NCBI RefSeq assembly: GCF_000455205.1
Contig: NZ_AUWQ01000074.1
Span: 52,669 to 116,668 of the forward strand
Origin: Mycobacterium sp. UM_CSW
GTDB lineage: Bacteria; Actinomycetota; Actinomycetes; Mycobacteriales; Mycobacteriaceae
Length of the DNA: 64,000 nucleotides
Reading direction: 5' to 3'
Both the position numbers and the translations under genes were made by a program. The notes below the pieces were generated by a model, which saw nothing but the letters and a program-made list of their open reading frames with translations, had not been told where the DNA came from and made no database searches. Position 1 is the first letter of the stretch, and each line of letters opens with the position of its first letter. Shown piece after piece: positions 23,844-39,966 of this stretch.

Positions 23844-24662
23844 TCAATTGATGGTCACGCCGGCGTCGACCTTGAACTGCAGTCCGGTCACCCATCTGGA
23901 CTCATCGGAAATGAGGAACAGCACCGCGTGGCTGACGTCGGCTGGCTCGACGGCGGGCGTCGGCATCGCATTGACGAAGATCGGGATCAGGTCCGGCCGT
24001 TCCTCACCCAGGGCGACGCCGAACGATGTGGGGATCATGCCGGTATGGCAACCGGTGGGAAGCACGGCATTTACCCGGACATTCTGGGCAGCCAGTTCGT
24101 TGGCCAATCCCAACGTCAGACCGACGACACCATACTTGGCGGCCGTGTAAGGCAGCTGCAGCGGAAAGCCTTTCACGGCCCCCGCCGAGCTGATGTTGAC
24201 GAGACTGCCTCCGCCCTGCTCGAGCAGGTGCGGTATCGCGACCGCACAGGTGTTCCATACTCCGATGAGATCGATGTCGACCACCGTTCGCCACTGATCG
24301 AGCGTCGTTCTATCCCAGGGCGCCGATGTCAACACGCCGGCATTGGCCACCGCCGCGTCGAGACCGCCCAGCTTGCTGACGCCGTCATCGACGGCAGCGC
24401 GCAACTCAACGTCCTCGCGGACGTCGACGACGTGGCTCACACAGCGACGGCCAAGCTCCGTCACCAGTTTTGCGGTCTCGGTGAGGTCATCCTCGGTGGC
24501 CAAGGGATAGTCGATCTGCGGCAGCGATCGGCAGATGTCGACCAGGATGAGATCAGCTCCTTCCTCCGCGAGCCGTAACGCATGGCTGCGCCCCAAACCG
24601 CGGGCGGCGCCGGTTATGAGTACGCGTTTGCCGGCAACGCGTCCCGGAGGTGACGCCGTCAC
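23844..24662 (-). CDS. Mycofactocin-coupled SDR family oxidoreductase
   Basis: A 272-residue short-chain dehydrogenase with the nucleotide motif TGAARGLGRSHA. The insertion LVDICRSLPQIDYPLATEDDL is the hallmark of SDRs that hold NAD(H) tightly and exchange electrons with the peptide-derived cofactor mycofactocin. The catalytic YTAAKYG is present. The GTG start at 24662 overlaps the stop of the upstream oxidoreductase (GTGA), so the two are coupled. It probably oxidises an alcohol formed by a P450 of the cluster. The mycofactocin biosynthesis genes themselves are not in the window. Confidence 0.85.
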   Translation of the reverse strand: MTASPPGRVAGKRVLITGAARGLGRSHALRLAEEGADLILVDICRSLPQIDYPLATEDDLTETAKLVTELGRRCVSHVVDVREDVELRAAVDDGVSKLGGLDAAVANAGVLTSAPWDRTTLDQWRTVVDIDLIGVWNTCAVAIPHLLEQGGGSLVNISSAGAVKGFPLQLPYTAAKYGVVGLTLGLANELAAQNVRVNAVLPTGCHTGMIPTSFGVALGEERPDLIPIFVNAMPTPAVEPADVSHAVLFLISDESRWVTGLQFKVDAGVTIN

Positions 24663-25732
24663 CAGAGCAGGCCGCGCATGGTGGCGGACAGAGGAATGTC
24701 CTCCACGGCGATCAGTCCCTGGGGGGCGCGGCATACCCAATCGATGGCGTTGACCGCCCGTCCGGCCGTCGAGACGCAGCCGGCGTCGGTGGAATCGAGC
24801 GTCGGATGCGAAACATGCGTGTTGATCTCGACCCGCGGTTCGCCCTCGACGACAACGCGGTGTACACCGGTATGGCCCTCGGGAGGGAACTCCCAGTCGG
24901 GTGCGGCGGCGGTGGTCAGCCTGGTGACATGCTCGAGGGTGATGACCGGTTCGCCGTCGAGGACACCCTCCGTCGCAAACCGAACCGCGGCCATCTGTCC
25001 AGGTTCGACCGTCATCATTGTGCATTCGATGCGCTCGGGTGTGAACCAGCGTTCGATGCGCTGACGGACCTCGTCGAGTTTGATGTCGAGGTTGTCTGCC
25101 AGACTCCGCACCTGGCCGCCCCACATCGACACAATTACGCCCGGCAGGAACATCATTGCCGTGTCATCGTCCTCGGTTGTTCCGAAACCCATTGCCACAC
25201 CGGTGAACTCGGCGTCGTCGTAGTTGCAGTAGTCGAAGATCTCCTGCACGGTGATCGACGAGACGCGGGTGGTCAGGCTGACCGCCGAGTGCACCAAGGT
25301 GTCGCCGGAGAACCCGGGGTCGATTCCGTTGACGTAGAGAGAGGTGTTGCCCGCAGCGCAGGCCTGCTCCAGCGGCACCCGAAGCCAGTCGTCGGCGTGA
25401 CGCGGGGTGACCAGCCAGACCATGGACGTGCCAACGACGTTGGTGCCCGCCGCCAGGAACTTGGCCATCTGATCGATCGCCTCCATCGGCCTCGTCTCGC
25501 CTTGAGACGTGTAGACGACGCAATCGGCGCCAAGGGCTATCAGGGCGTCGATGTCGTCGGTGGCGATAATGCCGGTGGGCTCGTTCAGTCCGCACAGCTG
25601 CGCCGCGTCCTTGCCGACCTTTTCAGCGCTGGCGGCGTGCACGCCAACCAGTTCCAGATCGGGCCGACCGATGATCGCGCGCAGCGAATGCCGTCCTACG
25701 TTGCCGGTCGAGAATTGAATCACTCTGCGCAC
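24659..25732 (-). CDS. DapB/2,4-diaminopentanoate dehydrogenase-like NAD(P)-dependent oxidoreductase (copy 1)
   Basis: A 357-residue Rossmann protein of the dihydrodipicolinate-reductase-like group that mycobacterial annotation often calls NAD(P)H-dependent amine dehydrogenase. It shows VIQFSTGNVGRHSLRAI at the N-terminus, then DCVVYTSQGETRPMEAI and GTNVVGTSM, and NGIDPGFSGDTLV in the catalytic half. The GTG at 25732 is preferred because AAGGAG lies 9 nt upstream. It is one of three paralogues in this window (others at 27376 and 33202). The true substrate in mycobacteria is unknown. It is coupled to the mycofactocin-type SDR and follows another SDR by 28 bp. Confidence 0.78.
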   Translation of the reverse strand: MRRVIQFSTGNVGRHSLRAIIGRPDLELVGVHAASAEKVGKDAAQLCGLNEPTGIIATDDIDALIALGADCVVYTSQGETRPMEAIDQMAKFLAAGTNVVGTSMVWLVTPRHADDWLRVPLEQACAAGNTSLYVNGIDPGFSGDTLVHSAVSLTTRVSSITVQEIFDYCNYDDAEFTGVAMGFGTTEDDDTAMMFLPGVIVSMWGGQVRSLADNLDIKLDEVRQRIERWFTPERIECTMMTVEPGQMAAVRFATEGVLDGEPVITLEHVTRLTTAAAPDWEFPPEGHTGVHRVVVEGEPRVEINTHVSHPTLDSTDAGCVSTAGRAVNAIDWVCRAPQGLIAVEDIPLSATMRGLLW

Positions 25733-26617: not shown

Positions 26618-26759
26618 CGACTTTGCGGCATCGGTACCCGTCACGGTGCCGCTGCATCCACAGTAATCAAGTTGTGCAAGCCTTTTTGACGGAAACACGG
26701 CATAATGATTTGTTAGCCTCGCTGCTCTGGTATGAGTCGGGTCAACCGTGAGGAAAGAA

Positions 26760-27359
26760 ATGGCTGTGACGGACCGGGTGTCTGCGCGAGAAGCGAAACG
26801 CCTGCAGACGCGAGAGCGGTTGATGGGCGCCGCGATCGCGGAGTTCGCCCGCGCGGGAATGGCAGAGGCCGACGTCAGCGCCATCGTGGCCGCCGCGGGA
26901 GTCGCCCACGGCACCTTCTTCTTTCACTTTCCCACCAAAGAGCACGTGCTGCTGGAGCTGGAACGCCGCGAAGAGGACCGCATCGCCAAGCAGTTCGCGC
27001 AATTCTTGAAGAACGAGCACGATCTTGCGGGCGCGCTTAACGAGGCGGTCCGCGTCGTAGTCGGACTGGAACGCCGGCTGGGTTATCTGCTCTTCAATGA
27101 CTTTCTCGCGCTGCACTTCTCCCAAACCCGTCCGCCTACCGAAGACGGCAGGGACCACCCGCTGGTCGTCTTGGTCGCCCAGGAGATTGCGCTTGCTCAG
27201 CAACGCGGCGAGACGGATCCTGAAGTCAACCCCATGAACAGTGCGGTGTTCTTCCTGCTGGGTCTCTACTCGCTCTTGATCACCACGAACCACTGGCCGA
27301 CTGGCCACGATCTGCTGGAAGACTACGTAGCGAGGTCGTTGCGCAGCTTGCGGCCTTGA
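26760..27359 (+). CDS. TetR family regulator, candidate repressor of the membrane-complex regulon
   Basis: A 199-residue TetR protein. The DNA-binding domain (about residues 8-55) includes LQTRERLMGAAIAEFARAG and GVAHGTFFFHFPTKEHVLLEL. The start at the ATG 26760 is supported by AGGAAAGAA immediately upstream; a GTG at 26748 is the alternative. It sits between the two divergent promoters that carry TGACT/AGTCA palindromes and is the nearest regulator to both, so it is the best candidate to bind them. Confidence 0.88.
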   Translation: MAVTDRVSAREAKRLQTRERLMGAAIAEFARAGMAEADVSAIVAAAGVAHGTFFFHFPTKEHVLLELERREEDRIAKQFAQFLKNEHDLAGALNEAVRVVVGLERRLGYLLFNDFLALHFSQTRPPTEDGRDHPLVVLVAQEIALAQQRGETDPEVNPMNSAVFFLLGLYSLLITTNHWPTGHDLLEDYVARSLRSLRP

Positions 27360-27375: not shown

Positions 27376-28479
27376 CTACGAGCGCACCAGACCGCGCAAC
27401 GGCACCAGCCCGAGTTCCTTATGGGTGAGGAATCCAGGTGCGGCCTCGCACACGGCCGGTACTGTATTCGCCGGGCCCATCGCCGTCCAGGTGTAACCCG
27501 GCTTGGGGTAATTGCCCTGCGGATCGGCCGGCGCTTGGAGGATCAACTCGGTGGGCTCGTCGCCATCGATGACGATGCGGTAGTGATAGTGTCCACCCCA
27601 ATCAGGTTGCGGCTCAATGGCATCGTATTCGTCCATGGTGTACATCTCATGAAAGGTGATGAGCGGCTTGCCATCGACCCACGTCGTCCACTTGTGATGC
27701 TGGGAGGCGACGGTGCCCTTCTTGATCGAGCCCTTAAAGCCGGGCATGTCACTGGTCGGCCCGCCTTCGTACGGAATGTCGCGAATTGCCGTGCCCAGCT
27801 CGACGTCCGTTGTGTACTTGTCGACCGTCTTCCCGAGGCCGTCGACCACCATGGCCATCGATTGCGCGAACAGCGGCCAGGCGTTGCCCAGCAGATTCGG
27901 GCCGGCCATGAACTCTTCGGGAGTGTTGCCCATCCCCATCTCGTGCAGATACTTCAAGGTGTCCTTGCCGAAATTCACCACCTCGTAGATGTGGATGGAT
28001 TCGATGCGGCTCACGATGCGAGCCAGCGTCAGCACGAGCAGGTCCCCGGCAAAACCCGGGTTGACACCACCCGCGTGGAATGAGGTACCGCCCTCGTGGC
28101 ACGCCGCGTCGATCTTGTCGATGTCGGCCTGGCTGTGCTCGGTTCGATACCACCACGCGCCGCCCGAGGCGACGACGTTCTTGCCCGCGCGCAGCAGCCT
28201 GCAGACCTCGTCGGGATCCGACCAAAGCGGCGCGTAGAAAACACAATCTGCATCAAGCGCTTCGATCGCGGCCTTGTCGGTGGTGGCGAGCACCCCGATC
28301 GGCGCGACGCCAACGAGTTCGCCGGCGTCCTTGCCCACCTTCTCCTGGCGATTGCAGAGCACCCCGACCACCTCGTACGCGGGATTGTGGGCAAAATGAC
28401 GCAACGCGACCGTCCCGACATTGCCCATGCCCCACTGGATTACGCGATATTTCTTCTCGGTCAGCGATTTGTGCGTCAT
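27376..28479 (-). CDS. DapB/diaminopentanoate dehydrogenase-like oxidoreductase (copy 2)
   Basis: A 367-residue paralogue of the proteins at 24659 and 33202. It has the N-terminal Rossmann segment YRVIQWGMGNVGTVALRHF, then DCVFYAPLWSDPDEVCRLL, GKNVVASGGAWW, and GGVNPGFAGDLLVLTL in the catalytic half. It converges with the TetR gene (17-bp gap) and is divergent from the ten-gene operon beginning at 28754, sharing the 274-bp control region. Probably cytosolic. The substrate is unknown. Retention of three divergent copies in one locus suggests each acts on a different intermediate. Confidence 0.78.
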   Translation of the reverse strand: MTHKSLTEKKYRVIQWGMGNVGTVALRHFAHNPAYEVVGVLCNRQEKVGKDAGELVGVAPIGVLATTDKAAIEALDADCVFYAPLWSDPDEVCRLLRAGKNVVASGGAWWYRTEHSQADIDKIDAACHEGGTSFHAGGVNPGFAGDLLVLTLARIVSRIESIHIYEVVNFGKDTLKYLHEMGMGNTPEEFMAGPNLLGNAWPLFAQSMAMVVDGLGKTVDKYTTDVELGTAIRDIPYEGGPTSDMPGFKGSIKKGTVASQHHKWTTWVDGKPLITFHEMYTMDEYDAIEPQPDWGGHYHYRIVIDGDEPTELILQAPADPQGNYPKPGYTWTAMGPANTVPAVCEAAPGFLTHKELGLVPLRGLVRS

Positions 28480-28516: not shown

Positions 28517-28570
28517 AGCGTAGGTGTTTCGCCGACACCATGTCAACGGCATTGGCCTGACTGATGTCAG
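28517..28570 (-). promoter_or_regulatory. Promoter and upstream palindrome of oxidoreductase copy 2
   Basis: On the minus strand a consensus -35 TTGACA (28546-28541) is followed after 18 nt by TACGCT (28522-28517), which fits the mycobacterial TANNNT -10 pattern. A CTGAC-TGAT-GTCAG palindrome (28557-28570) lies 10 bp upstream of the -35 box and resembles the TGACT/AGTCA operators nearby. Confidence 0.5.
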
Positions 28571-28684: not shown

Positions 28685-28712
28685 TTGCTGACTAAAGTCA
28701 GCCTGTTATAGT
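28685..28712 (+). promoter_or_regulatory. Promoter and operator of the membrane-complex operon
   Basis: A -35 box TTGCTG (28685-28690) and -10 box TATAGT (28707-28712) are separated by 16 nt. The perfect palindrome GCTGACT-AA-AGTCAGC (28687-28702) fills the -35 and spacer. Repressor binding here would occlude the promoter of the ten-gene operon starting at 28754. The core matches the operator at 26605-26616. Confidence 0.65.
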
Positions 28713-28753: not shown

Positions 28754-29464
28754 GTGAACCTGCCGAAGCTGCAACAGCGCGGCCCGGCCCTACCGGGGCT
28801 GACGTTCGACGAGCACACGGAGCAATCGCAGCTCGCGCAGCGTCAGGCCGACAAGTGGCTGATCTCCGGCAGCCTGCTGATCGGAACCGCGGCCTTGGGC
28901 GTCTTCGGGCTGCCGCTGTTCCTCTGGGGTGTGCGGTCATTGCGCCGGGCGCAAACCGCTGGGCTCTCCGTCCGGCCGATGCTCGTCACCTTGCTCGGTT
29001 ATCTCGTGATCATCGACGCCGCCATCAACACCGTGGGATGGGCGCTTGACCTGGTGGCGAACCACACCCTGCTGGCCCGCGTTCTGCTGAACGGTTGGGG
29101 CAACATGTTCGACGCCGGCTACTTCTGGCACTACAACGAGCTGTGGATCGGCGGCGCGGCGGGCCCCGGCGAAAAGGGCTGGGAGGTCGGGCTCATCCTG
29201 ACCGTCTTCACGATGCGGATCGCCGCGGCCATCGGCTTCCTGCAGATGAAGCGGTGGGGCCATCAATGGATGGTCGTCACCTGCTGGATGGGGGTCGTGA
29301 TCTGGATCGGCTACGTGTTCAACATGACGATGTTCGCCGACGTCCGCTTCGCCGGTGTCGTGCTGCCGGTCGTCGGCTGGTGGCTCTACGACATCTTCTA
29401 CATCACGCCGTTCCTCGCCATCCCGTATCTCCACACCGTCAACCGCGAAATCTTTACCGACTGA
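28754..29464 (+). CDS. Five-helix integral membrane protein A1, unknown family
   Basis: A 236-residue polytopic membrane protein with about five helices (36-61, 76-101, 143-165, 172-193, 203-228). I do not recognise a named family. The segment between helices 2 and 3 carries [18 protein letters not shown], and the C-terminus ends in [13 protein letters not shown]. Polar residues buried in or near helices and shared with A2 (32056) are Asp89, His104, Asp120, His126, Glu129, His170, Asp196, Asp213, His227 and Glu232. They could form a metal site. It is the first gene of an operon that also encodes a VWA protein and a MoxR-type ATPase, which in other systems mature metal enzymes. GTG start. Confidence 0.75.
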   Translation: MNLPKLQQRGPALPGLTFDEHTEQSQLAQRQADKWLISGSLLIGTAALGVFGLPLFLWGVRSLRRAQTAGLSVRPMLVTLLGYLVIIDAAINTVGWALDLVANHTLLARVLLNGWGNMFDAGYFWHYNELWIGGAAGPGEKGWEVGLILTVFTMRIAAAIGFLQMKRWGHQWMVVTCWMGVVIWIGYVFNMTMFADVRFAGVVLPVVGWWLYDIFYITPFLAIPYLHTVNREIFTD

Positions 29465-29485
29465 AAGCGATACGGAGGACAGATT

Positions 29486-29590
29486 GTGGGTTATCTCTGG
29501 GAGATCCTTCGCTACGTCGCCGCCTGGGGCGGCACTGGCCTGATCATTTGGTTCTGGTATTGGCTCTTCTCCAACATCGGTACGTTCTAA
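29486..29590 (+). CDS. 34-residue single-helix membrane microprotein
   Basis: A 34-codon frame starting at GTG 29486 with a near-ideal ribosome-binding site (GGAGG, 7 nt upstream). The product (MGYLWEILRYVAAWGG followed by TGLIIWFWYWLFSNIGTF) is one tryptophan-rich transmembrane helix. It lies 21 bp after A1 and 16 bp before the VWA gene. The equivalent place before A2 is also occupied by a one-helix microprotein (31931). Small single-helix subunits of this kind commonly stabilise membrane enzyme complexes. No homologue is known to me. Confidence 0.7.
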   Translation: MGYLWEILRYVAAWGGTGLIIWFWYWLFSNIGTF

Positions 29591-29606
29591 GCGGTTCGGG
29601 GCACAT

Positions 29607-31136
29607 ATGGTTGAACTCGCCGATGCCCACGCGCTGGCGCTCGAACGAAGTTGCGCCGTCACGGCGGTCGCGCTGAGTGAGCAACGCCGCGAAGGTGTCC
29701 GGCTCGTCACCGGTGACCGGCGCGCCTTCGGGCTTAACGGGAAGCTCACCTTCGTTCACGTCCCCTACCCCGCCCTGTCCGACTGGACACGCAGAACACT
29801 CACATGCGGTGTGGCCCTGCAATGTTCGCCCTCAAAGGAGCGCGTCACCGGATATCGACTGAACGAGCTCTCCGACCGCGAATTGCGGGCGCTCACGCTT
29901 GTCGAAGCCGGCGTCGCCGTCGGCTGGATCGCGTCGCGGTGGCCAGGGCTGCTGCCCGAGATCAGACGAGTGCTACCCGAGCTCCCTACCGAAGCCGGTG
30001 ACATGGACGCCCCCGAGATGCTCAACCGAGCGGTTGCGTTGGCAGCGACAGGTCAGGCGCTGACGGTGCACCCGCTGCTGGGTAACCTGCCGCTGGCCTA
30101 CACGATGCCGCAGGGTTTGGCCGACAAGTTGCGGCGAAGCTTTGGCAGGATGCCATGGACGACAACGCAGAAGCGTCTGCCGCGGCCGTACTCGGTTCCC
30201 GTCGGCGGCGACGGGGGTGTCCGCAATCCCAACCTGCCGCCGCCGAGCCGACCGCAGGACAACGACTTCGACATCACCCCCGACCATCGACCCGGCATTC
30301 CCTATCCGGAGTGGAATGCGTGGACGAAGAGTTTTATGCGAGACCACGTGGCGGTTCTCGAGCGGGCACATGCCAGCCGCAATCGCCAACCCGGCTCCAT
30401 CTCCGCAGACCTTCGAAAATGGTTCGAAGAACACACCCATCGCGCGATGCAGAATCGCCTCGAAGATGGCTCCGACCTGGACGTCGAACAATACGTCAGC
30501 TATTACGTCGACACGGCAACCGGCGCGGCGAGCGAACCCCGCATCTTCCGCGAACTGCTACCCAGCGGCCGAGACGTCACCACTGCGCTGCTTCTCGACG
30601 GCAGTTCCTCGCTGGGAGTGCACGGCGGCCGGATCTTCCGATTGGAATTGGCTTGTGCCGATGCACTTTCGCGCGCGATGAACCGTGCTCGCGAGCGCCA
30701 CGGAATCTTCATGTTCACCGGAAACACCCGACACCGCGTCGAAGTTCGCTGCCTCAAGGACTTCGATGACCCCCGATTTGTGCCGCCGAGCGGCCTCGGA
30801 CTTCAGACCGGTGGCTACACGCGACTCGGCGCGCCGCTTCGCCATTTGACGAACCGCCTTCTGGAGCAGCCGTCCGAGCGGCGCCTGCTCATCGTCATCG
30901 GCGACGGGCTGATCTCCGATGAGGGTTACGAGGGCCGTTATGCCTGGGCTGACGCCGCACACGCGGTCGAGGAGGCCAGCGACGCGGGGGTTTCGATGTA
31001 CTACGTAGGCGTTGGACCGACCCGAGTCGATCCCCTCCCGGAGGTGTTCGGTCCCCGTCGTTCTCAACGAATCCGGCGTGTCGAGGAGCTGCCGCGGGTG
31101 CTGGCCCATGTCCATCGAGAGCTGGTCGCCGCATGA
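29607..31136 (+). CDS. VWA-domain protein, NorD/CbbO-like
   Basis: A 509-residue cytosolic protein. The C-terminal half is a von Willebrand factor A domain with the metal-ion-dependent adhesion site DGSSS (331-335), a downstream Thr in GGYTRLG and a conserved Asp in VIGDGLISD. The middle contains PYPEWNAWTKSFMRDHVAVLE, similar to the YPEWD segment of NorD/CbbO proteins. With their AAA+ partner (NorQ/CbbQ) these proteins activate or insert cofactors into nitric oxide reductase or Rubisco. The downstream ATPase gene overlaps by ATGA, as expected for such a pair. The client is presumably the A1/A2 membrane protein. Confidence 0.85.
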   Translation: MVELADAHALALERSCAVTAVALSEQRREGVRLVTGDRRAFGLNGKLTFVHVPYPALSDWTRRTLTCGVALQCSPSKERVTGYRLNELSDRELRALTLVEAGVAVGWIASRWPGLLPEIRRVLPELPTEAGDMDAPEMLNRAVALAATGQALTVHPLLGNLPLAYTMPQGLADKLRRSFGRMPWTTTQKRLPRPYSVPVGGDGGVRNPNLPPPSRPQDNDFDITPDHRPGIPYPEWNAWTKSFMRDHVAVLERAHASRNRQPGSISADLRKWFEEHTHRAMQNRLEDGSDLDVEQYVSYYVDTATGAASEPRIFRELLPSGRDVTTALLLDGSSSLGVHGGRIFRLELACADALSRAMNRARERHGIFMFTGNTRHRVEVRCLKDFDDPRFVPPSGLGLQTGGYTRLGAPLRHLTNRLLEQPSERRLLIVIGDGLISDEGYEGRYAWADAAHAVEEASDAGVSMYYVGVGPTRVDPLPEVFGPRRSQRIRRVEELPRVLAHVHRELVAA

Positions 31137-31915
31137 CGGATACCTACCTTGCAAACGGCAACGAAGTCCAGCTGTTCGAACAGGCCTTCCGCCAACGGAT
31201 CCCGGTGATGCTCACCGGGCCTACCGGGTGTGGCAAAACGCGGTTCGTCGAGCACATGGGCCTGCTGTTGGAGCGGCCGGTGGTCACCATCAGTTGCCAC
31301 GACGATCTCACCAGCTCCGATCTCGTCGGGCGCTTCATGGTGACCGGCGGCGATGTGGTCTGGACCGATGGGCCGTTGACCCGAGCCGTCAAAGCCGGCG
31401 CGATCTGCTACCTCGACGAAGTCGTCGAGGCTCGCCACGACTCGCTGGCCATCCTGCATTCGCTCACCGATCACCGGCGATCGCTATACCTCGACCGTGC
31501 CGGCGAAGTCGTGCGGGCGCCCGACACCTTCATGCTTGTCTGTTCATACAACCCGGCATATCGCAGCTCGCTGAAGGAACTCAAACCCTCGTTCCGCCAG
31601 CGTTTCGTCACGCTTGCGATGACGTACTTACCGCCCGACCGCGAGGCCGAGGTGATCGTCGGCGAAGCCGGGATTCCCCTGGCCACCGCGCAGCGGCTGG
31701 TCGCATGCGCGGTCGCGATCCGCACCGCCGACGAAGCCTTTCACTTCGAACCGCCGTCCACCAGGGTGCTGGTCACCGCTGCCCAGCTGATCGCAGCCGG
31801 CGCAACCGAATTCGACGCGGCCGACGCTTGCATACTCGCGCCACTGAGCACGGACGGCGCCATCACCGACGGTCTACGTGAAGTCGCGGCAGCCAGCCTG
31901 GCCACCTCGCCCTAG
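31133..31915 (+). CDS. MoxR-family AAA+ ATPase, NorQ/CbbQ-like
   Basis: A 260-residue AAA+ protein with Walker A GPTGCGKT (29-36), Walker B CYLDE (Asp95, Glu96), a sensor-1 region VCSYNPAYRSSLKELKPSFRQRF (Asn and arginine finger) and a CbbQ/NirQ/NorQ-type C-terminal lid. The ATG overlaps the VWA stop (ATGA). The family forms hexameric rings that use ATP to remodel a metalloenzyme client together with the VWA partner. In this operon the pair lies exactly between the two paralogous membrane proteins. Confidence 0.9.
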   Translation: MTDTYLANGNEVQLFEQAFRQRIPVMLTGPTGCGKTRFVEHMGLLLERPVVTISCHDDLTSSDLVGRFMVTGGDVVWTDGPLTRAVKAGAICYLDEVVEARHDSLAILHSLTDHRRSLYLDRAGEVVRAPDTFMLVCSYNPAYRSSLKELKPSFRQRFVTLAMTYLPPDREAEVIVGEAGIPLATAQRLVACAVAIRTADEAFHFEPPSTRVLVTAAQLIAAGATEFDAADACILAPLSTDGAITDGLREVAAASLATSP

Positions 31916-31930
31916 AAAGGAGCTATCGGC

Positions 31931-32059
31931 ATGGATCTCAAAGAGCAGAAGCGCAAGCGGGCGCTCATCGTCTTCCAGATCGTCATCTATGGCTACTTGG
32001 CGGTGATGTTCGGAATCCAGCTTTACATGTCGTTTGCCCGAGGCTGGTGGGATCTGTGA
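31931..32059 (+). CDS. 42-residue single-helix membrane microprotein
   Basis: A 42-codon frame with ATG 31931 preceded by AAAGGAG about 10 nt upstream. The product has a charged N-terminus (MDLKEQKRKR) followed by one transmembrane helix (ALIVFQIVIYGYLAVMFGIQ) and a short aromatic tail ending in ARGWWDL. Positive-inside reasoning places the N-terminus in the cytoplasm. The stop overlaps the GTG start of A2 (GTGA), a strong sign that it is translated and coupled to A2 in a fixed ratio. It shows no clear sequence similarity to the other microprotein. Confidence 0.75.
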   Translation: MDLKEQKRKRALIVFQIVIYGYLAVMFGIQLYMSFARGWWDL

Positions 32060-32763
32060 ATCTTCTTCTGCTGAATCGTCATTCAGGCGACGGCTCCGTC
32101 AGCCTCGAGGACCACCACGACGTATCGCGCCAGGCGCAGCGCCGCGCCGACAAGTGGATGATCGTCGGCGCCGCCCTGATGGGCATGTGGGCCCCGGGAT
32201 TGATCGGGTTTCCCATCTTCATGCGCGGGGTGTGGCTGCAGCGCCAGGCCCTGCGCGCGGGCCTGTCGGTCAGGCCCATGATCGTGACCCTGATCGGTTA
32301 CCTCGTCCTGATCGACGGAATGCTCAACAGCCTGGGCTGGGCCCTGGACCTGGTCGCCAACCACACGTTGATCAACCGGGTGCTGATGGTCGGCTGGGGC
32401 AACATGTTCGACGCCGGCTACTTCTGGCATTACAACGAGCTGTGGGTCGGCGGAGCGGCCGGGCCGGGCGAGAAGGCCTATGTCGCGGGGCTCATCCTCA
32501 CGGTCTTCTCGATGCGGGTGGCCGCGGCGATCGGGTTCTTGCAGATGAAGCGGTGGGGCCATCAGTGGATGGTGGTCACCTGCTGGATGGGCGTGGTGAT
32601 CTGGTCCGCCTACGTGTTCAACATGACGATGTTCGCCGACGTGCGCTACGCGGGGGTCGTGTTCCCGGTAGTCGGCTGGTGGCTCTACGACATCTTCTAC
32701 ATCACGCCGTTCCTCGCCATCCCGTATCTGCACACCGTCAACCGCGAAATCTTCACCGACTAG
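32056..32763 (+). CDS. Five-helix integral membrane protein A2, paralogue of A1
   Basis: A 235-residue protein closely related to A1. From LSVRPM onward the two are nearly the same, including [57 protein letters not shown] and the whole C-terminal helix. The first 45 residues differ. I chose the GTG at 32056 because it aligns with A1 (MNL start) and overlaps the microprotein stop; an in-frame GTG at 32047 would add three residues. All candidate metal-ligand residues of A1 are kept. A1 and A2 may form a heterodimer. Confidence 0.75.
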
Positions 32764-32776
32764 AAGGGACAGTGCC

Positions 32777-33205
32777 ATGACCGCACCGTCAACCGCTGAC
32801 GAAAAAGGACCGGCTGCAAACCTCGAGCCGGGAACGACGCCGTACTACGCGCGAATGCACAAATGGATCAAGCGCGCCGTGTTGGTGTGCCTGGTGGCGC
32901 TGGTCATCGAGGGTGCGTTCACGTTGCCGTTCATGGCGGTCTATTACGGCTACCCGACGCTGAGCCTGACCGAGATCTGCAGTGAGCTGTTGAAGATTCG
33001 GTACTCGAACGACACCTTGGAGTGCAAGTACCCGTATCCGCCCTTCGGACCGCCGGAGGGAGCAGAGGGCAAGGCCACCGCGCAGGACGTATGGGGCATC
33101 CAGCCGATACCCAAGTACCACCGGCTCGGGTTCCGCGAACTGGTGAGGATCCACGACGAAAGGCTCGCCCGCCAGGCGGCCCAACAGCATGCGGCGCCAC
33201 ATTGA
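32777..33205 (+). CDS. Single-pass membrane protein with extracytoplasmic Cys-Pro-rich domain
   Basis: A 142-residue protein I cannot place in a family. A cytoplasmic N-terminus of about 30 residues leads to one helix ([19 protein letters not shown]) and an extracytoplasmic segment with two cysteines (TEICSELL and [15 protein letters not shown]), probably a disulfide, followed by an amphipathic helix ([18 protein letters not shown]). AAGGGA precedes the ATG. Its stop overlaps the TTG start of the next gene. Position right after A2 suggests another subunit of the membrane complex. Confidence 0.7.
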
Positions 33206-34257
33206 CGTACCGGGTCGTTCAGTGGACGACGGGCAACGTCGGAAAGAGCTCGGTGCGGGCGATCGCCTCGAACCCGACCTTGGAGCTCGTCGGATGCTAC
33301 GCGTGGTCCCCGGAGAAGGCGGGACGCGACGTCGGCGAGTTGTGCGGGATCGAAACCCTGAACGTGAGGGCCACCAACGACATTGAGGCCCTGCTCGCGC
33401 TGAAGCCCGACTGTGTCGTGTACAACCCGATGTTCGCCAACGTCGATGAGCTGGTCCGCATCCTCGGCGCGGGAATCAACGTGGTAGGCACGGCCGGCTT
33501 CGTCACCGGCCACTTCCTCGGTGCGGGACGCGATCGCATCGTGCAGGCCTGCGAGCGGGGTGAGTCGACCATCTTCGGCAGCGGCATCAACCCGGGATTC
33601 ATCCAACTGTTCGCCATCGTGTCGGCGGGGCTCTCCGACCGAGTCGACAAGGTGTCAATGCTGGAATCCGCTGATACGACTATCTACAACTCCCCTCCAA
33701 CCGAAATACCGATGGGCTTCGGCTATCCCATCGACCAGCCGGATCTGCCGGCGATTACCGAAAAGGGGTCGGGGGTATTCCGGGACGCTGTGTTGCTGCT
33801 CGCCGATGCTCTGGGTGCCGAACTCGACGACGTGCGTTGCGTCGCCGAATACGCCCAGACCACCGAGGACCTTCACCTACCCGGCGACTGGACGATCGGC
33901 AAAGGCTGCGTCGCCGGCGTAGACGTCCGGTGGAAAGGGATTATCGGTGATCGGGAGGTTATCGAGATCCGCGGGCGATGGCGCAAGGGCCAAACGCTGG
34001 ACCCGGACTGGCCGCTGGACATGGGCTACACCATCGAGGTTCAAGGTCGACCGACGATCAAGACCACACTGAGCTTCCTTCCGCCCCCGGACTTTCAGGG
34101 CGAGACATTGGACGACTACATCATGTTGGGTCTCACTATCACCGCGATGCCGGCGATCACCGCCATACCCGCCGTCGTAGCGGCGGCACCCGGGATCGCT
34201 ACGTACAACGACCTGCCGCTACTCCTTCCGCGTGGAGTACTTTGCGCGGATGCGTAA
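33202..34257 (+). CDS. DapB/diaminopentanoate dehydrogenase-like oxidoreductase (copy 3)
   Basis: A 351-residue Rossmann protein with [19 protein letters not shown] at the start, [29 protein letters not shown] and the catalytic-region [12 protein letters not shown]. It is the third copy of this family in the window. The start is inferred to be the TTG at 33202, which overlaps the previous stop (TTGA) and aligns with the N-termini of the other copies; no ATG or GTG fits as well. Inclusion in the operon ties a soluble NAD(P) enzyme to the membrane complex. Confidence 0.78.
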
Positions 34258-34277
34258 CTGTCGATTGGGAGACGTCC

Positions 34278-34694
34278 ATGCCTGAATCGCCGCTGCTTCA
34301 TCACGTCGTGTTCGCCGTCGCACCCGAGCGGCATGCAACCGCCGCGCAAATGTTCACCGACCTGGGATTTGCCTTCGAGAATTTCCAGCTGCCAGAACTC
34401 GGGTTGGACATCCACCTCGACTGGAATCGCGGTATCGAGGTGATCAGCCCCGTCCCGGGATCGCCCGGAAAGGTCGCCGCTTCCGTGAACGAGTTCCTCG
34501 AGCGCCACGGCGACGGGGTGTACACGGTGGTAATCGGGGTTGCGGTTGCCTCCGCCGCCGAAGCCGTCGCCGAGCGATACGGCGCCACAACGCGATTCCG
34601 GCAGCACTTCGAGGGTGACGGCTCCTATCTCGACGAGATCGACTTGTCGGTCCGCGGCCTGCCGCTGACATTTCTGGCCACGGACATTCCGTGA
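34278..34694 (+). CDS. VOC (glyoxalase/bleomycin resistance fold) protein
   Basis: A 138-residue protein with the vicinal-oxygen-chelate pattern: LLHHVVFAVAPERHATAAQMFTDLGFAFE at the start and EVISPVPGSPGKVAASVNEFLERHGDGVYTVVIGV in the middle. His9 (or His8) and a glutamate near the end of the first module are candidate metal ligands; the second-half histidine seen in methylmalonyl-CoA epimerases is not obvious. It may act as an epimerase, isomerase or dioxygenase on a pathway intermediate. GGGAG supports the ATG. Its stop overlaps the P450 start (GTGA). Confidence 0.72.
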   Translation: MPESPLLHHVVFAVAPERHATAAQMFTDLGFAFENFQLPELGLDIHLDWNRGIEVISPVPGSPGKVAASVNEFLERHGDGVYTVVIGVAVASAAEAVAERYGATTRFRQHFEGDGSYLDEIDLSVRGLPLTFLATDIP

Positions 34695-35932
34695 CAGCCC
34701 AGCAACCGCTCGGCGCGGCGATGCCGAGCGTTTTCGACGCCGATTTGCCGGTGCTTGACTACGACATCACCGACACACCTCAAGAGATCTACCCACAGTT
34801 TCGCGCCGCCCAGCAGATCGCACCGATCGCGTTGGGGCCCGTGGGACCCGAAGTGCTGTCCTACGAACTCGCCAGAACTGTGCTGGGTGACCCGCGATTC
34901 GGGATTCCCCCGGGCATTCACCTCACCGCGCATGGCGTGACGTCAGGTGAACTGTGGGACCGGGTCGTCCGCAGCATCCTCTGTATGGAAGGCGCCGAAC
35001 ACCGTCGGTTGCGCGGGCTCGTGTCGAGGGCCTTCACGCCGCGGGCAACCGCGAGGATGGACGATACGATCCACGCCGTCATCAACGAACTCGCCGACGC
35101 CGTTGTCGCCGAAGGGAGTTGCGAGTTCGTCGAGGAGATCGCACGACCGTACCCCATCCCCGTCATCTGTGCCCTGCTGGGAGCGCCGCGGCAAGACTGG
35201 CAGCTGTTCTCAAAGTGGGCAGAGGACGTCTTCAAGATCGTCAGCTTCGACTGCAATCTTGCCGAGGAGGAGCCCAAGGTCCTCAGGGCCTGGGATGCTT
35301 TCGACGAGTACATCGACGGGATGATCGCCGATCGCCGCAAGGCACTGACCGACGACTTACTGTCCGAACTCATACGGGCCGAAGACCGCGGCGACCGGCT
35401 CGACGCCGGCGAGGTCCGCATGCTCGCGTTCAGCATTCTGGTCGCCGGGACCGACACCACACGTACGCAATTGGCAGCCTCGATGGAAGTCCTTTGCGAA
35501 CATCCCGAGCAGTGGGCTCTCCTTCGCGACCGTCCCGAGCTCGGTATGAAAGCCGTGGAAGAAACCATGCGGCACTCGCCGTCGATGTGCAGCACCCTGC
35601 GCAGCGTCACTGACGACGTCACGGTCGGTGACTACACCTTCCCGGCCGGCACCTTCATCATCGTGAACACCTATGCCGCCAACCGTGATCCGTCGATCTA
35701 CGAAGACCCCACCCGCTTCGACATCACTCGCGACGACCCACCGCCCATCCTCACCTTCGGCGGTGGCGCGCACTACTGCCTCGGCGCCAACCTTGCCAGG
35801 CGAGAACTCTCCGAGGCGCTCAAGATCCTTTCCCATCGCCTGCCGCATCCACGGAGCATCGAAAATCCGCCGTGGCGGCCACTTCTCGGCATGAGTGGGC
35901 CCACGCGCCTACCACTCGAGTTCGATACCTGA
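34691..35932 (+). CDS. Cytochrome P450, last gene of the membrane-complex operon
   Basis: A 413-residue P450 with I-helix AGTDTT, ExxR in EETMRHS and heme loop FGGGAHYCLG. The conserved acid-alcohol pair needed for oxygen activation is present. The GTG start overlaps the VOC stop, so it is coupled to the operon. The 3' end overlaps the convergent small membrane-protein gene by 24 bp. It is not closely related to the other four P450s in the window as judged by its motifs. Confidence 0.9.
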   Translation: MTAQQPLGAAMPSVFDADLPVLDYDITDTPQEIYPQFRAAQQIAPIALGPVGPEVLSYELARTVLGDPRFGIPPGIHLTAHGVTSGELWDRVVRSILCMEGAEHRRLRGLVSRAFTPRATARMDDTIHAVINELADAVVAEGSCEFVEEIARPYPIPVICALLGAPRQDWQLFSKWAEDVFKIVSFDCNLAEEEPKVLRAWDAFDEYIDGMIADRRKALTDDLLSELIRAEDRGDRLDAGEVRMLAFSILVAGTDTTRTQLAASMEVLCEHPEQWALLRDRPELGMKAVEETMRHSPSMCSTLRSVTDDVTVGDYTFPAGTFIIVNTYAANRDPSIYEDPTRFDITRDDPPPILTFGGGAHYCLGANLARRELSEALKILSHRLPHPRSIENPPWRPLLGMSGPTRLPLEFDT

Positions 35933-36226
35933 TCCGCCGCGTCGCACGACGCGCTGCCGGTACAGCAGGCTCGCGTTGAAATAGGTCAGGTAGACAACTG
36001 TGGCGGCCACGGCGGCTCGACGAGTGCGAGAATTGAAAAGCGCTAAGCCCAGGCCCGCTTCGATGCTGCCGTTGATGAGCACGTGGGCCCGAATGCGGTC
36101 CTTGAAGGCCATCCGATTCACCGATTCGAACGCACTCGGGCACAGAAGGTGCGCGATACCGGACGCCATGAGTCCCAGTCCCCCTAGCAATGCCCATCTT
36201 TCGGATCGTGTGCGTCCAGGCTTCAT
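35909..36226 (-). CDS. Small four-helix membrane protein (DoxX-like), copy a
   Basis: A 105-residue protein with hydrophobic segments LLGGLGLMASGIAHLL, HVLINGSIEAGLGLALF and AAVAATVVYLTYFNASLL. It resembles the 102-residue protein at 41682 along its length: GIAHLLCPSAFESVNRMAF versus GVAHFLVPRIFDPFNRLGF, and NGSIEAGLGL versus NGAIETALGV. Both are paired with closely related P450s. The ATG at 36226 overlaps the P450 stop (ATGA). DoxX-like proteins are poorly understood; a membrane anchor or partner for the P450 is one possibility. Confidence 0.75.
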   Translation of the reverse strand: MKPGRTRSERWALLGGLGLMASGIAHLLCPSAFESVNRMAFKDRIRAHVLINGSIEAGLGLALFNSRTRRAAVAATVVYLTYFNASLLYRQRVVRRGGSGIELEW

Positions 36227-37626
36227 GGGGTCGACCTCTCGTGGAGAACGACGGGAAGGTGGATGGGGCCACGCAGCGAGCTGTTGGTGGACCACGTTGT
36301 CCGTCCGGTGAGCGAAATTCGGGACACGCGGTTGACCAGTTCACGGAGAACGGCTTGTGCCTCCATCCGTGCCAGCGGCGCTCCCAGACACAGGTGTGGA
36401 CCGTACCCAAAGCCGACGTGGGTGCGTGGATTTCGGTCCGCGCGGAAGGTGTTTGGGTCGTCGAAGGCAAGAGGATCACGGTTGGCCGCTCCAAATGACA
36501 TCAGCACGCGTGAACCCGATGGGATGGTGATATCGCCTACTTGATAGTCGGCACGAGTGTATCGGTAGAGGTTTTGAATGGGGCTGGTGTAGCGCACGTG
36601 TTCTTCGATGGCCTGAGGGATGAGGTCGGGGTCGGCGCGGATCATGTCGTATTGATCGGGGTGGTGAGCGTAGGTGTGGAGCATCCCCCCGAGAAGGTTG
36701 GTTGTGGTCTCATTGCCGGCGATCAAAAGCAAGATTGCGATGTAGAACAACTGGTTGTCGGTCATCGCACCATCGGCGCTGTGCGCCAACAGGCGGCCGA
36801 GGACGGTGTCCGATCCCTTAAGGTGCCCCTCCGCCAGATGTTTCAAGAAATAGCGGCGCAGCGCTACTGCGGCGCGCATCGACCGGGCCATACTCGCAAC
36901 GCCTTTCACCGAAGGGGTGAAGTTGATGATTTGGGTGGCTTCGTCTGACCACCGGCGGAAGTCGGCGATGTCGCTCTCGGGGACGCCGAGGATGGCGGCG
37001 ATGACGCGAAGAGGCATCGGGATTGTCAGCCGCTGCACGGCATCGCAGTCACCAGCAGCGATCATGTCATCGACGAGTTCGGCGGCAAGCCCATCGATGA
37101 TGCTGCGCCAACTCTCCAGTGCACCCTTGGTAAATGCCGGCTGGACTTGTTTGCGCAGGCGGCTGTGCTGTTCTCCGTCGGTGACCACCACAAGATCGGC
37201 GACCATCCGTACTCGGGTCACTCCATGGCTGCTGGTCACCTGATCTGTGTCGCGTAGGGCTGCGCGGACATCGTCGAGCCTGTGCAGAATCCATGTGGCA
37301 CGCCGGGGGTTGTAGTGAACACGTCCGCTGCGGTGCAGGGCGTCGTAGGCAGCGTGGGGCTGCGCCGCGACGGCCGGGTCCAACGGGTCATAGTCGGTAT
37401 TGATCGCACCCGTCCACCCCGTGTAGCCACGACTGCGCGTGCGGATCGCCGCGGCGACGTTTAATCGCCCCGCTGCAATGATCGGCGACAACAATGCGAC
37501 GGAACCGTCAGCGGCCTTTCCGAGCTTCAAGATGAGCGCACCTTTCCCGACAGCAGTGGTCTTAGAGTCAGTCCCGGCCGCTAGGCGGTCAATACCTGGC
37601 AGCGAAGTTGAGAAGGCCCCATGCAC
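36223..37626 (-). CDS. Cytochrome P450, paired with DoxX-like protein (copy a)
   Basis: A P450 of up to 467 residues with I-helix AGNETTTN, ExxR in EEHVRYT and heme loop FGYGPHLCLG. It is a close paralogue of the P450 at 41999 over the whole catalytic part (shared segments include GWTGAINTDYDP and HRSGRVHYNPRRAT). The start is uncertain: the GTG at 37626 lacks a good ribosome-binding site and gives about 27 more residues before the shared region than the paralogue has. A TTG inside that stretch is an alternative. Coupled to the downstream DoxX-like gene. Confidence 0.87.
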   Translation of the reverse strand: MHGAFSTSLPGIDRLAAGTDSKTTAVGKGALILKLGKAADGSVALLSPIIAAGRLNVAAAIRTRSRGYTGWTGAINTDYDPLDPAVAAQPHAAYDALHRSGRVHYNPRRATWILHRLDDVRAALRDTDQVTSSHGVTRVRMVADLVVVTDGEQHSRLRKQVQPAFTKGALESWRSIIDGLAAELVDDMIAAGDCDAVQRLTIPMPLRVIAAILGVPESDIADFRRWSDEATQIINFTPSVKGVASMARSMRAAVALRRYFLKHLAEGHLKGSDTVLGRLLAHSADGAMTDNQLFYIAILLLIAGNETTTNLLGGMLHTYAHHPDQYDMIRADPDLIPQAIEEHVRYTSPIQNLYRYTRADYQVGDITIPSGSRVLMSFGAANRDPLAFDDPNTFRADRNPRTHVGFGYGPHLCLGAPLARMEAQAVLRELVNRVSRISLTGRTTWSTNSSLRGPIHLPVVLHERSTP

Positions 37627-37784: not shown

Positions 37785-38984
37785 TTAGATGAACGCGGGC
37801 ATCGATTCCCAGCCTCGGACAGCCGACGCCGATGACAAGTGTGCGTTCTGGGTGTCGATATCCCACTCGGGGAAGCGCTTGAAGATTTCCTCGAGCGCGA
37901 TTCGTGCCTCCAGCCTGGCGAGTGCCGCTCCGAGGCAGAAGTGGGCTCCTACGCTGAATGCCAGGTGCTGACGGGGCTGGCGATGGATGTCGAATCGGTC
38001 TCCGTCAGGCGGGAATTGGCGGTGGTCGCGGCAAGCCGACGCGATCAGCGGCATCATGACGCTGCCTTCGGGCACTGTGTGGCCGTACCACTCGGTATCA
38101 CGGGTGACGTAGCGGGCGAGGTGCGGTACGGGAGGTTCGTAGCGCAGCAGTTCCTCGATCGCCTGTGGTATCAACCGATGATTGACCGCGATCTCGCGCC
38201 GCTGGTCGGGATGGTCGGCGAGAACTTTTCCGGCCCAGCCAAGGAGTCGGGTGGTGGTCTCGTTGCCCGCCGAGGCGACGAGTCCTATGTAAAGCAGGAT
38301 TTCGTCGCGGGTCAGGGTTCGGCGGACTCCTGTCTCGTCGTCGAATTCGACGTTGAGGAGTTCAGTGGTGATGTCGTCGGAGGGGTGTTCGGCGCGCCAG
38401 TCGAGATAGGCGGCGAACACCTCGTCGTACTGGACGCCTTCCGAGGCCAGGGTCATGGGTTGGCCGGCCTCGGTGAGCAACGCGGCATTCGAACGTTCCC
38501 GGACTTGTTCTTGGTGGTCTTCGGGAATGCCGACCAGCATTCCGATGACTCTCATCGGCATCTGAGCGCCGAGATCGCCAATGAAATCGAAACGTCCAGT
38601 GCCGACGACAGGGTCGAGACATTGTGCACAAAACGCGCGAATCTTGTCCTCGAGGTCAGCGATCTTGCGGGGGGTGAAAATCCGCGCGAGCAATTTACGG
38701 TGGATGTCATGAACCGGTGGGTCTTCGAAAACGATGATGCCGGGCGGTATCTCGATGTTGGCCTTGATCACTTCGAGGATCATTCCGCGGGCTGAACTGA
38801 ACGTGCCGGTGTCGACCAGCGCACGACTCACGTCCTGGAAACGACTGAGCGCATAGAAATCGTATTGCTCGTTGTAGTACAGCGGCGACTCCTCGCGCAG
38901 CCGCCGGAACACTGGGTAGGGATCGGCCAGAAGTTCCACATCGTAGGGGTCGTACCGAATGTCGTTGACCTCAGTTACGGTCAT
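37785..38984 (-). CDS. Cytochrome P450
   Basis: A 399-residue P450 with I-helix SAGNETTTR, ExxR in EELLRYEP and heme loop FSVGAHFCLG. AGGAGG precedes the ATG at 38984, so the earlier in-frame start at 39059 is rejected. It is upstream of the copy-a P450 on the same strand with a 158-bp gap, and divergent from a TetR gene whose start region carries a strong palindrome. The short I-helix motif and DIHRKLLARIFTPRKIADLE segment resemble steroid- or terpene-acting mycobacterial P450s, but the substrate is unknown. Confidence 0.9.
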   Translation of the reverse strand: MTVTEVNDIRYDPYDVELLADPYPVFRRLREESPLYYNEQYDFYALSRFQDVSRALVDTGTFSSARGMILEVIKANIEIPPGIIVFEDPPVHDIHRKLLARIFTPRKIADLEDKIRAFCAQCLDPVVGTGRFDFIGDLGAQMPMRVIGMLVGIPEDHQEQVRERSNAALLTEAGQPMTLASEGVQYDEVFAAYLDWRAEHPSDDITTELLNVEFDDETGVRRTLTRDEILLYIGLVASAGNETTTRLLGWAGKVLADHPDQRREIAVNHRLIPQAIEELLRYEPPVPHLARYVTRDTEWYGHTVPEGSVMMPLIASACRDHRQFPPDGDRFDIHRQPRQHLAFSVGAHFCLGAALARLEARIALEEIFKRFPEWDIDTQNAHLSSASAVRGWESMPAFI

Positions 38985-39159
38985 GGCCCGTCCTCCTGGT
39001 GCAGTGGAACCTGCCGCGATCCCTCGATGTATCACAGCAGACCTAGCGCCAACTGACAAGACAATTCGGAGCTGAATGTCGCGTCATCGTGGACTGTTGC
39101 GGATTCGGGCGGTGTGGTGACGAGGAACTCCTGGGCGGAAGTCACCTACTTCTCATAAG

Positions 39160-39173
39160 ATTTCGTACGAAAT
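39160..39173. promoter_or_regulatory. Perfect palindrome overlapping the TetR start codon
   Basis: ATTTCGTACGAAAT is a perfect 14-bp palindrome that includes the first two bases of the ATG at 39172. A TetR dimer bound here would block its own transcription or translation, and the site lies in the 187-bp region shared with the divergent P450. If transcription were leaderless, the operator would cover the transcription start. Confidence 0.6.
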
Positions 39174-39966
39174 GACACGTGTGAAACGACAAGATACCGT
39201 TGACCCCGGCCCCAGTTCGCAATACGGTTATCTGCAGGTTGTCGCGTCAAACCGAACTGGAGCACAACGGTGGGCCTTGCCCTTGCGTAGCCATGGATGG
39301 TCGGGCCACACGCCGGCCTCCGATGAGGAAGCCGTCAACAGGATTCTGGACGCGGTTGACTCCTTGATTGCCGAAGGCGGATCGGCCATCCGCATCAGCG
39401 ACGTGGCCCGCGTTCTGGGAGTAAGCCGGCAGACCATCTACCGTTACTTTCCTGGGGCTGAAGCGCTTCTGGTCGGAAGCCAGATGCGTTCGGCTAACGG
39501 CTTTCTCGATCGTTTAGCCGATCACCTGCGTGGGTGGACAAATCCGGGGGCTGCCGTCGTCGAGGGCGTAGCATTCGCGGCCGAGGAGTTCGCCGACGAC
39601 CCGCTGATGGCGCGCGTCCTAGACGCACGGTTACCGGGCGGCACGTCGGCCTCGTTCACCGCCGGTGCGGCATTTGGTCTCGGACGAGAAATGTTCCGAC
39701 GATATGACGTCGACTGGGCCGCCCACGGCTTCGACCACGCCGCGATCGACGACCTCATCGAACTCGCTGTACGCACACTCCAGTCGATTCTGCTCGATCC
39801 TCCCGAGCGGCCACTCAACCCAGTGGCACTCCGCAGGCTCGTGAGCAGATGGCTTGGACCGGCCGTCCTCTACCACCAGCTGACCCGCGACATCGATGCA
39901 CTAACCGCTCTCACGCATGCCAGCCAACCGGCTTCCAGCGCTCGCGGATCAGTCAAATTGGCGTGA
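39172..39966 (+). CDS. TetR family regulator
   Basis: A TetR protein of up to 264 residues. A roughly 45-residue N-terminal extension precedes the helix-turn-helix (NRILDAVDSLIAEGG and VLGVSRQTIYRYFPGAEALL). The ALPLRSHGWSGHTPASDEEA segment just before the domain is common in mycobacterial TetR proteins, so the true start may lie downstream; the GTG at 39181 is one option. It is divergent from a P450 with a palindrome at its start codon, and likely represses that P450 and itself. Confidence 0.85.
   Translation: MTRVKRQDTVDPGPSSQYGYLQVVASNRTGAQRWALPLRSHGWSGHTPASDEEAVNRILDAVDSLIAEGGSAIRISDVARVLGVSRQTIYRYFPGAEALLVGSQMRSANGFLDRLADHLRGWTNPGAAVVEGVAFAAEEFADDPLMARVLDARLPGGTSASFTAGAAFGLGREMFRRYDVDWAAHGFDHAAIDDLIELAVRTLQSILLDPPERPLNPVALRRLVSRWLGPAVLYHQLTRDIDALTALTHASQPASSARGSVKLA

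Follow-up and report, generated by a model that had tools for sequence, protein, structure and literature searches.

Among the described systems closest to the locus reported here are operons in which a MoxR-type AAA+ ATPase is encoded together with a VWA protein. In the cNOR operon (norCBQDEF), NorQ and NorD are encoded alongside a membrane complex, and NorQD is essential for iron insertion into cNOR, according to PMC9976466. The clients of CbbQ/CbbO and of the CO-dehydrogenase (CoxD-type) pairs are Rubisco and CO dehydrogenase, and CbbQO is thought to remodel rather than to insert metal, as described in PMC12657314. We analysed a group of ten genes in a 64,000-nucleotide stretch of the genome of Mycobacterium sp. 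UM_CSW (contig NZ_AUWQ01000074.1, positions 52,669 to 116,668), hereafter the window, in which a pair of this type lies among two paralogous membrane proteins (A1 and A2, the A proteins) and three small proteins (mp1, mp2, and C142). The gene set is real and conserved, and its maturation pair is of a known type with a putative client that would be new to it. We tentatively propose that the gene products form an enzyme complex in the membrane that acts on a sterol- or terpenoid-like lipid and is assembled by the dedicated NorQ/NorD-type pair; we regard this proposal as plausible, if somewhat short of probable.

The ten open reading frames (ORFs) listed in an earlier, sequence-only reading of the window are all present on the + strand as described there, and the start/stop overlaps that it reported were confirmed (ATGA at 31133, GTGA at 32056, TTGA at 33202, and GTGA at 34691). 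The genes are as follows.

28754..29464, + strand: A1, five-segment membrane protein, paralogue of A2 (236 amino acids, GTG start)
29486..29590, + strand: mp1, Trp-rich microprotein of 34 amino acids with the C-terminal sequence ..SNIGTF (GTG start)
29607..31136, + strand: VWA, NorD-like in residues 230–509, MIDAS motif kept
31133..31915, + strand: MoxR, NorQ/CbbQ-type AAA+ ATPase
31931..32059, + strand: mp2, single-span microprotein of 42 amino acids
32056..32763, + strand: A2, five-segment membrane protein (235 amino acids, GTG start)
32777..33205, + strand: C142, single-span protein with Cys68 and Cys83 in its soluble part
33202..34257, + strand: NADox, NAD(P) oxidoreductase, variable tail (TTG start)
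34278..34694, + strand: VOC-like protein, variable tail (weak family call)
34691..35932, + strand: cytochrome P450, variable tail

A1 and A2 were 73% identical, and a hydropathy scan gave five hydrophobic segments for each, in agreement with the two paralogous five-helix membrane proteins proposed earlier. The scan also gave one segment for C142, which bears out its description as a single-pass Cys-containing protein, and one for mp2; no segment of mp1 exceeded the hydropathy threshold, and only one of the two supposed one-helix microproteins was therefore recovered as such. The pooled pN/pS values were 0.155 for mp1 (73 sequences) and 0.183 for mp2 (72 sequences), and because of these values, which point to purifying selection, both microproteins look like genuine genes. 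The domains found by Pfam (AAA_5 and CbbQ_C, DapB_N and DAP_DH_C, and P450) support the identities given to the NorQ-like ATPase, the NAD(P) oxidoreductase, and the P450. The Pfam score of VWA was just below the cut-off (23.5 vs 23.8 bits), and the VOC identity held only as a weak Glyoxalase_4 match below the cut-off (E 0.0036). A1, A2, mp1, mp2, and C142 gave no significant Pfam or NCBIfam match in a scan at E ≤ 1, where the sole sub-cut-off matches, both far below, were SLATT_1 for A2 (E 0.18) and DUF2116 for mp2 (E 0.16). PHROGs returned no result for A and C142, a PDB sequence search with the A and C142 profiles and one A protein returned no match, and a scan of eight proteins for defence systems with PADLOC returned only two weak AAA matches, both for MoxR.

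We determined the conservation of the gene set in 80 named loci, which were the best 80 of 316 relatives from a scan of named genomes and are therefore biased to close relatives. A1 was found in 78 of these loci, mp1 in 79, VWA in 79, MoxR in 80, mp2 in 80, A2 in 80, and C142 in 79. The seven genes were complete in 78/80, and all misses fell in two loci cut by contig ends (L055 and L108). The counts for NADox, VOC, and P450, which depend on the identity thresholds of the locus search, were 40, 46, and 40. These results indicate that the conserved unit comprises seven genes followed by a changeable tail of three, and the idea of a ten-gene operon conserved as one unit was dropped, since the last three genes occur in only about half of the loci. 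The recurrence of the core in the same order across the named loci indicates a gene set beyond chance. The relatives in the named loci belong to Mycobacterium, Mycolicibacterium, or Mycolicibacter, plus one Aldersonia. In a draw of 301 genomes from one family, A2 was present in 32 genomes and in 7 of 31 genera. Thirteen family genomes outside the genus g1 carry A, ten of them (including the contig-cut G019) with a single A gene. In the phylogenetic tree, A1 and A2 fell into two supported clades, and a separate doubling was seen in two other genera. The mean column identity of A over 103 close relatives was 79%. No A relative was found in the viral contigs searched, and a plasmid search gave one, on a plasmid of M. 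branderi (L151). Word searches of open-licence papers found no title or abstract opening on this gene set, which agrees, within that literature, with the sequence-only reading, whose author knew of no such system.

In regards to the pair, MoxR matched AAA_5 with 121.6 bits (cut-off 22) and CbbQ_C with 74.6 bits (cut-off 20.6), an architecture common to it and the CbbQ/CbbO and CoxD-type pairs. It was NorQ-like over residues 4–254 of 260 (NorQ 9qh4, E 6.4e-76) and also matched CbbQ strongly (6l1q, E 2.1e-65). The Walker A sequence GPTGCGKT and the Walker B sequence [YF]LDE[VI] were present in 98/98 MoxR sequences longer than 200 amino acids. VWA matched NorD (9qhd, E 8.5e-32) over residues 230–509, and the MIDAS sequence D[GA]S[SA]S together with GYTR or GFTR was present in 95/95 VWA sequences longer than 400 amino acids. 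The NorD likeness holds for this C-terminal half, whereas the first 229 residues are unaligned, and phmmer did not extend the match to a full-length NorD architecture. The locus further differs from the cNOR operon in that none of the ten window proteins matched NorB/NorC or a heme-copper family and in that A has no invariant His. It differs from the CbbQ/CbbO and CoxD-type systems in that the constant partners of the pair are predicted membrane proteins.

A VWA relative of at least 51% identity was found in 32/32 family genomes with A and in 0/20 without A, the latter being the first negatives listed and not a random draw. In G019 the VWA protein comprises residues 1–354 only and lies at the contig end. 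The 20 genomes without A gave at most a C-terminal VWA match near 30%. VWA relatives were also found in G902 (44%), G1073, G1096, G1145, and G417 (36%), and none was found in G883 and G931, both of which have divergent A genes. These results indicate that the pair is tied to A and the small proteins across genomes and loci, as expected from the earlier proposal that A1 and A2 have their own NorQ/NorD-type maturation pair. Judged from sequence comparison, the pair is dedicated to A, yet not obligatory at every A locus.

This last point is illustrated by paralogous and divergent A loci. The paralogous loci L034 (in the genome of the window), L041, and L052 carry mp1, mp2, A, and C142 by tblastn; VWA and MoxR are both missing from the stretch examined, and the VWA of the pair is present elsewhere in each genome. 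The A gene of L034 is a third paralogue of the window's genome (G000:C14:59399-60070; L034:7035-8532); it is accompanied by mp1-, mp2-, and C142-like genes, has no VWA/MoxR in the 16 kb examined, and has acyl-CoA dehydrogenase, AMP-binding ligase, SDR, and amidohydrolase genes as neighbours. Six loci contain divergent A genes, namely L150 (G417, from another class), L151 (the M. branderi plasmid), L184, L185, L186, and L187. The divergent A proteins share about 34–43% identity with each other and with A1/A2. VWA and MoxR adjoin A in L150 and L186; in the stretches examined, neither was detected by tblastn in L184, L185, and L187, and none is named in the annotation of L151. In L184 an AAA-type ATPase frame (L184:9633-10499), recognized by eye in the translation, follows the divergent pair-less A gene.

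We ran mp1, mp2, and C142 profiles over the 1833 ORFs of the six divergent loci. The best matches of the mp1 profile lay directly upstream of A in L187 (E 4e-5), L150 (0.032), L186 (0.041), and L185 (0.16), and those of the C142 profile in L185 (E 6e-6), L184 (3e-5), L151 (0.069), L187 (0.075), and L150 (0.77). The mp2 profile matched only in L186 (E 0.31). The best small-subunit E value per locus ranged from 5.9e-6 to 0.069; only L184, L185, and L187 passed E 0.01, and the weak assignments in L150, L151, and L186 rely on position. One ORF matched both mp1 and C142 in L187 and, more weakly, in L185, which suggests that mp1 and C142 may be in contact. The sequence-only reading had held that A genes occurring regularly without the pair and without the microproteins would speak against it. 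Instead, a small membrane subunit was recognized beside each of the pair-less A genes, by tblastn in L034, L041, and L052 and by profile in L151, L184, L185, and L187.

The same loci bear on the possibility that the pair has a different client, for example the P450, and that A and the microproteins are a separate system sharing the operon. A and its small subunits do occur without the pair at some loci, and L150 has a P450 gene next to the cluster, on the opposite strand. However, the pair's VWA tracks A in the family genomes (32/32 vs 0/20) and the operon P450 is found in only 40/80 loci, and in L186 the pair adjoins A in a 15-kb stretch with no match to the window P450 or NADox. We therefore consider another client very unlikely.

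To what extent the NorQ/NorD kinship implies a metal was judged from the residues of A. When 17 diverse A proteins were aligned, the invariant columns (A2 numbering) included Arg73, Asp87, Asn91, Trp95, Asp119, Glu139, and Arg197, and no His or Cys was invariant. The earlier suggestion of a His/Asp/Glu metal site in A1 and A2 thus loses its His, and a carboxylate site remains conceivable. In a metalloenzyme reading, the A complex would hold a metal site and VWA/MoxR would insert or adjust this metal, in the way that NorQD serves the non-heme iron of cNOR. The essential role of NorQD in iron insertion (PMC9976466) and the residues Asp87, Asn91, Asp119, and Glu139, which could form a carboxylate site, are consistent with it, as are Cys68 and Cys83 of C142, invariant in 16/16 aligned relatives. 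The C-terminal part of C142 bearing this Cys pair is, however, missing from the short divergent C142-like proteins, no His or Cys of A itself is invariant, and the pair is missing from the examined stretch of four of the six divergent A loci (L151 by annotation; L184, L185, and L187 by tblastn). In addition, the remodelling role ascribed to CbbQO means that the pair is no proof of a metal. A metal site in the A complex consequently appears unlikely.

PmoC/AmoC, like the proposed A complex, belong to multi-span membrane complexes with small subunits. We scanned ten A proteins with Pfam (A1 and A2 at E ≤ 1, the other eight at E ≤ 10) and found no match to the copper membrane monooxygenase or heme-copper families; A differs from PmoC/AmoC in this respect and in the missing invariant His. 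PmoC/AmoC-like and heme-binding readings were dropped on the latter ground, and an AveC-like spirocyclase was rejected because the same ten proteins gave no such Pfam match.

The neighbouring genes, and only these, point to a lipid substrate, whereas complex formation and pair-driven assembly are proposed because of the conservation and kinship of the pair. Around other A loci we found genes for acyl-CoA ligases, acyl-CoA dehydrogenases, an amidohydrolase, MlaE permeases, AtuA, P450, and SDR. An ERG2_Sigma1R gene (PF04622, E 4.8e-28; sigma-1 receptor 5hk1, E 1e-18) lies downstream in 12/80 named loci, a count in which L120 is a fragmentary match, L125 a weak and partial one, and L070 a match of 47%; an example is L107:17262-17891, with 11 other named loci. 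A gene of the EXPERA (EBP/TMEM97-like) type lies near A in 5/80 named loci (L121:14099-14632, L093:15273-15782, L105, L116, and L119 near 18.6 kb), never in one locus with an ERG2-like gene, and one linked EXPERA type matched TMEM97 (7m93, profile E 1.1e-16). The search for both types found one in 18 of 110 sequences, the window included. ERG2-like genes occurred in 12/301 family genomes, ten of which are among the 32 with A (Fisher p 2.6e-9; this and our other Fisher tests ignore kinship), and lay 0.5–6.6 kb from A in 8/10 and on another contig in 2/10. These linked sterol-isomerase-family genes are an addition to the sequence-only reading, as are the TetR gene and its conserved operator described below. 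The neighbours in the window include the following.

23847..25124, − strand: SDR of the mycofactocin-coupled family TIGR03971 (331.8 vs cut-off 300 bits)
27376..28479, − strand: divergent DapB/DAP_DH-like NAD(P) oxidoreductase (PF19328 above cut-off; NF040740 below)
36226-37626 and 37788-39059, − strand: two further P450 genes adjoining the operon

We propose the following course of events. One or two A paralogues would form a membrane complex with C142, mp1, and mp2. VWA would present this complex to MoxR, and ATP hydrolysis would drive its late assembly or activation, as NorQD does for cNOR (PMC9976466). The complex may then transform a sterol- or terpenoid-like lipid within the membrane, and the substrate or a derivative could be handled further by the linked P450, the mycofactocin-type SDR, and the DapB-like reductase, joined in some species by EBP-like or ERG2/sigma-1-like proteins.

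Several observations weigh against this proposal. Mycobacteria commonly carry P450 and SDR genes, and such neighbours are therefore weak evidence of a pathway. The ERG2-like gene is a neighbour outside the core and is absent from the window's own genome; the search of the window found neither an EXPERA nor an ERG2 gene, 63/80 named loci have neither type within the stretch examined, and A is absent from 2/12 ERG2 carriers. At the level of whole genomes, EXPERA genes showed no link to A, occurring in 8/39 genomes with A and 7/20 without (E ≤ 0.1). No A protein matched a known catalytic family. The AlphaFold2 model of A2 (67 sequences) was poor, with a pLDDT of 65 and a pTM of 0.57, and gave no PDB match at E ≤ 0.001. 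Foldseek and VIA-align listed only unspecific helical matches for this model, and the absence of EBP/TMEM97 among them proves nothing.

A related explanation makes A itself a far-diverged EXPERA fold. Its membrane cavity would bind a sterol-like lipid, or isomerise it by metal-free acid-base chemistry, and the AAA+/VWA pair would remodel the assembled complex. A has five predicted segments and EBP has five spans, with the catalytic residues His76, Glu80, Glu122, and Trp196 (PMC6549186); the A-EBP alignment was too weak to place these residues. Two of the ten A proteins scanned, those of L150 (E 0.0012) and L187 (E 0.21), matched PF05241 in the same register, with a best score of 19.6 bits, below the gathering score of 25.7. 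When a nine-sequence bacterial EXPERA profile was run over 8211 ORFs, the A genes of L187 and L150 ranked 5th (E 0.02) and 6th (E 0.06), and the four ORFs above them were EXPERA by sequence; a narrower five-sequence profile placed them only 8th (E 3.8) and 19th (E 28). Profile-profile comparisons of A with EXPERA gave P values of 0.33, 0.10, and 0.76 and one weak in-register value of 0.0068. In an hhalign control with eight membrane clusters, EXPERA scored 16.8 and 17.0 vs 12.5–18.8 for the clusters, no better than decoys, although the cluster scoring 18.3 was itself of the EXPERA type. The EXPERA genes near 5/80 loci and the linked sigma-1-like genes fit this explanation; the EXPERA distribution in the genomes and the missing fold match of the A2 model do not. 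Because the decoy control failed, we keep an EXPERA fold for A only as a rival to our proposal, possible but doubtful.

Alternatively, the A complex could be non-catalytic and act as a carrier or permease, supplying the linked P450 and SDR with a hydrophobic substrate. The all-membrane composition, the location among catabolic genes, and the invariant charged residues in or beside the predicted segments would suit such a role. The ten A proteins, however, gave no significant transporter match, the weak MerC match of L151 (E 4.1) being the only one, and the MoxR/VWA pairs treated in PMC9976466 and PMC12657314 act on enzymes; the 79% column identity would likewise suit an enzyme core better. A carrier seems decidedly unlikely.

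The boldest form of our proposal is an undescribed class of membrane enzyme for sterol or terpenoid chemistry in actinobacteria, with an EBP-like sterol-binding core that acquired three single-span subunits and came to depend on a NorQD-type pair, encoded in operons to which, in some species, a sigma-1-like or EBP-like isomerase also belongs. We hold this to be improbable.

In regards to the control of the locus, a TetR-type gene and two operator copies precede A1.

26748..27359, + strand: TetR-type regulator of 203 amino acids (26748-27356 is 90% identical to a TetR_N protein)
28557..28570, + strand: operator copy 1, CTGAC-N4-GTCAG (motif search)
28688..28701, + strand: operator copy 2, CTGAC-N4-GTCAG, 52 nt before A1

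The TetR-type gene cluster was present in 72/80 named loci (one member tested by Pfam: TetR_N). CTGACN4GTCAG occurred twice in the window vs 0.07 expected. After omission of the two contig-cut loci, TGACN4GTCA was found in the 700 nt that precede the first A gene in 77/78 loci, in its strict form in 49, with 0.02 expected per stretch. In the whole genome the strict motif occurred at 14 places, two of them at this locus, and a control pattern at 3, which indicates that the strict motif alone is not specific. The TetR protein probably controls the operon through the TGACN4GTCA operators, to which it would bind.

Further genes were observed around these loci. After both extra P450 genes of the window follows a TetR-type gene (39172-39963) with a weak KstR match. 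The window also contains, at 15750-17744 on the − strand, a 665-amino-acid protein that combines ecdysteroid-kinase-like and DUF7064/DUF7065 domains. L187 likewise has a DUF7065 protein close to A, and in L150 the gene after MoxR encodes an APH-type kinase. A 4161-amino-acid open frame at 45923-58408 (− strand) is overlapped by a + strand frame of 1550 amino acids. Proteins with a PEP-utilising mobile domain were found near A in two distant lineages (L054:13887-16457, whose cluster occurs in 39/80 loci, and L187:5367-7022).

The linked ERG2/sigma-1-like and EBP/TMEM97-like genes provide bacterial counterparts to two sterol-isomerase folds of medical importance. If the proposal is true, the membrane clients of NorQD-type chaperone pairs would no longer be confined to heme-copper enzymes, and a widespread, highly conserved, and unannotated mycobacterial locus would gain a testable role.

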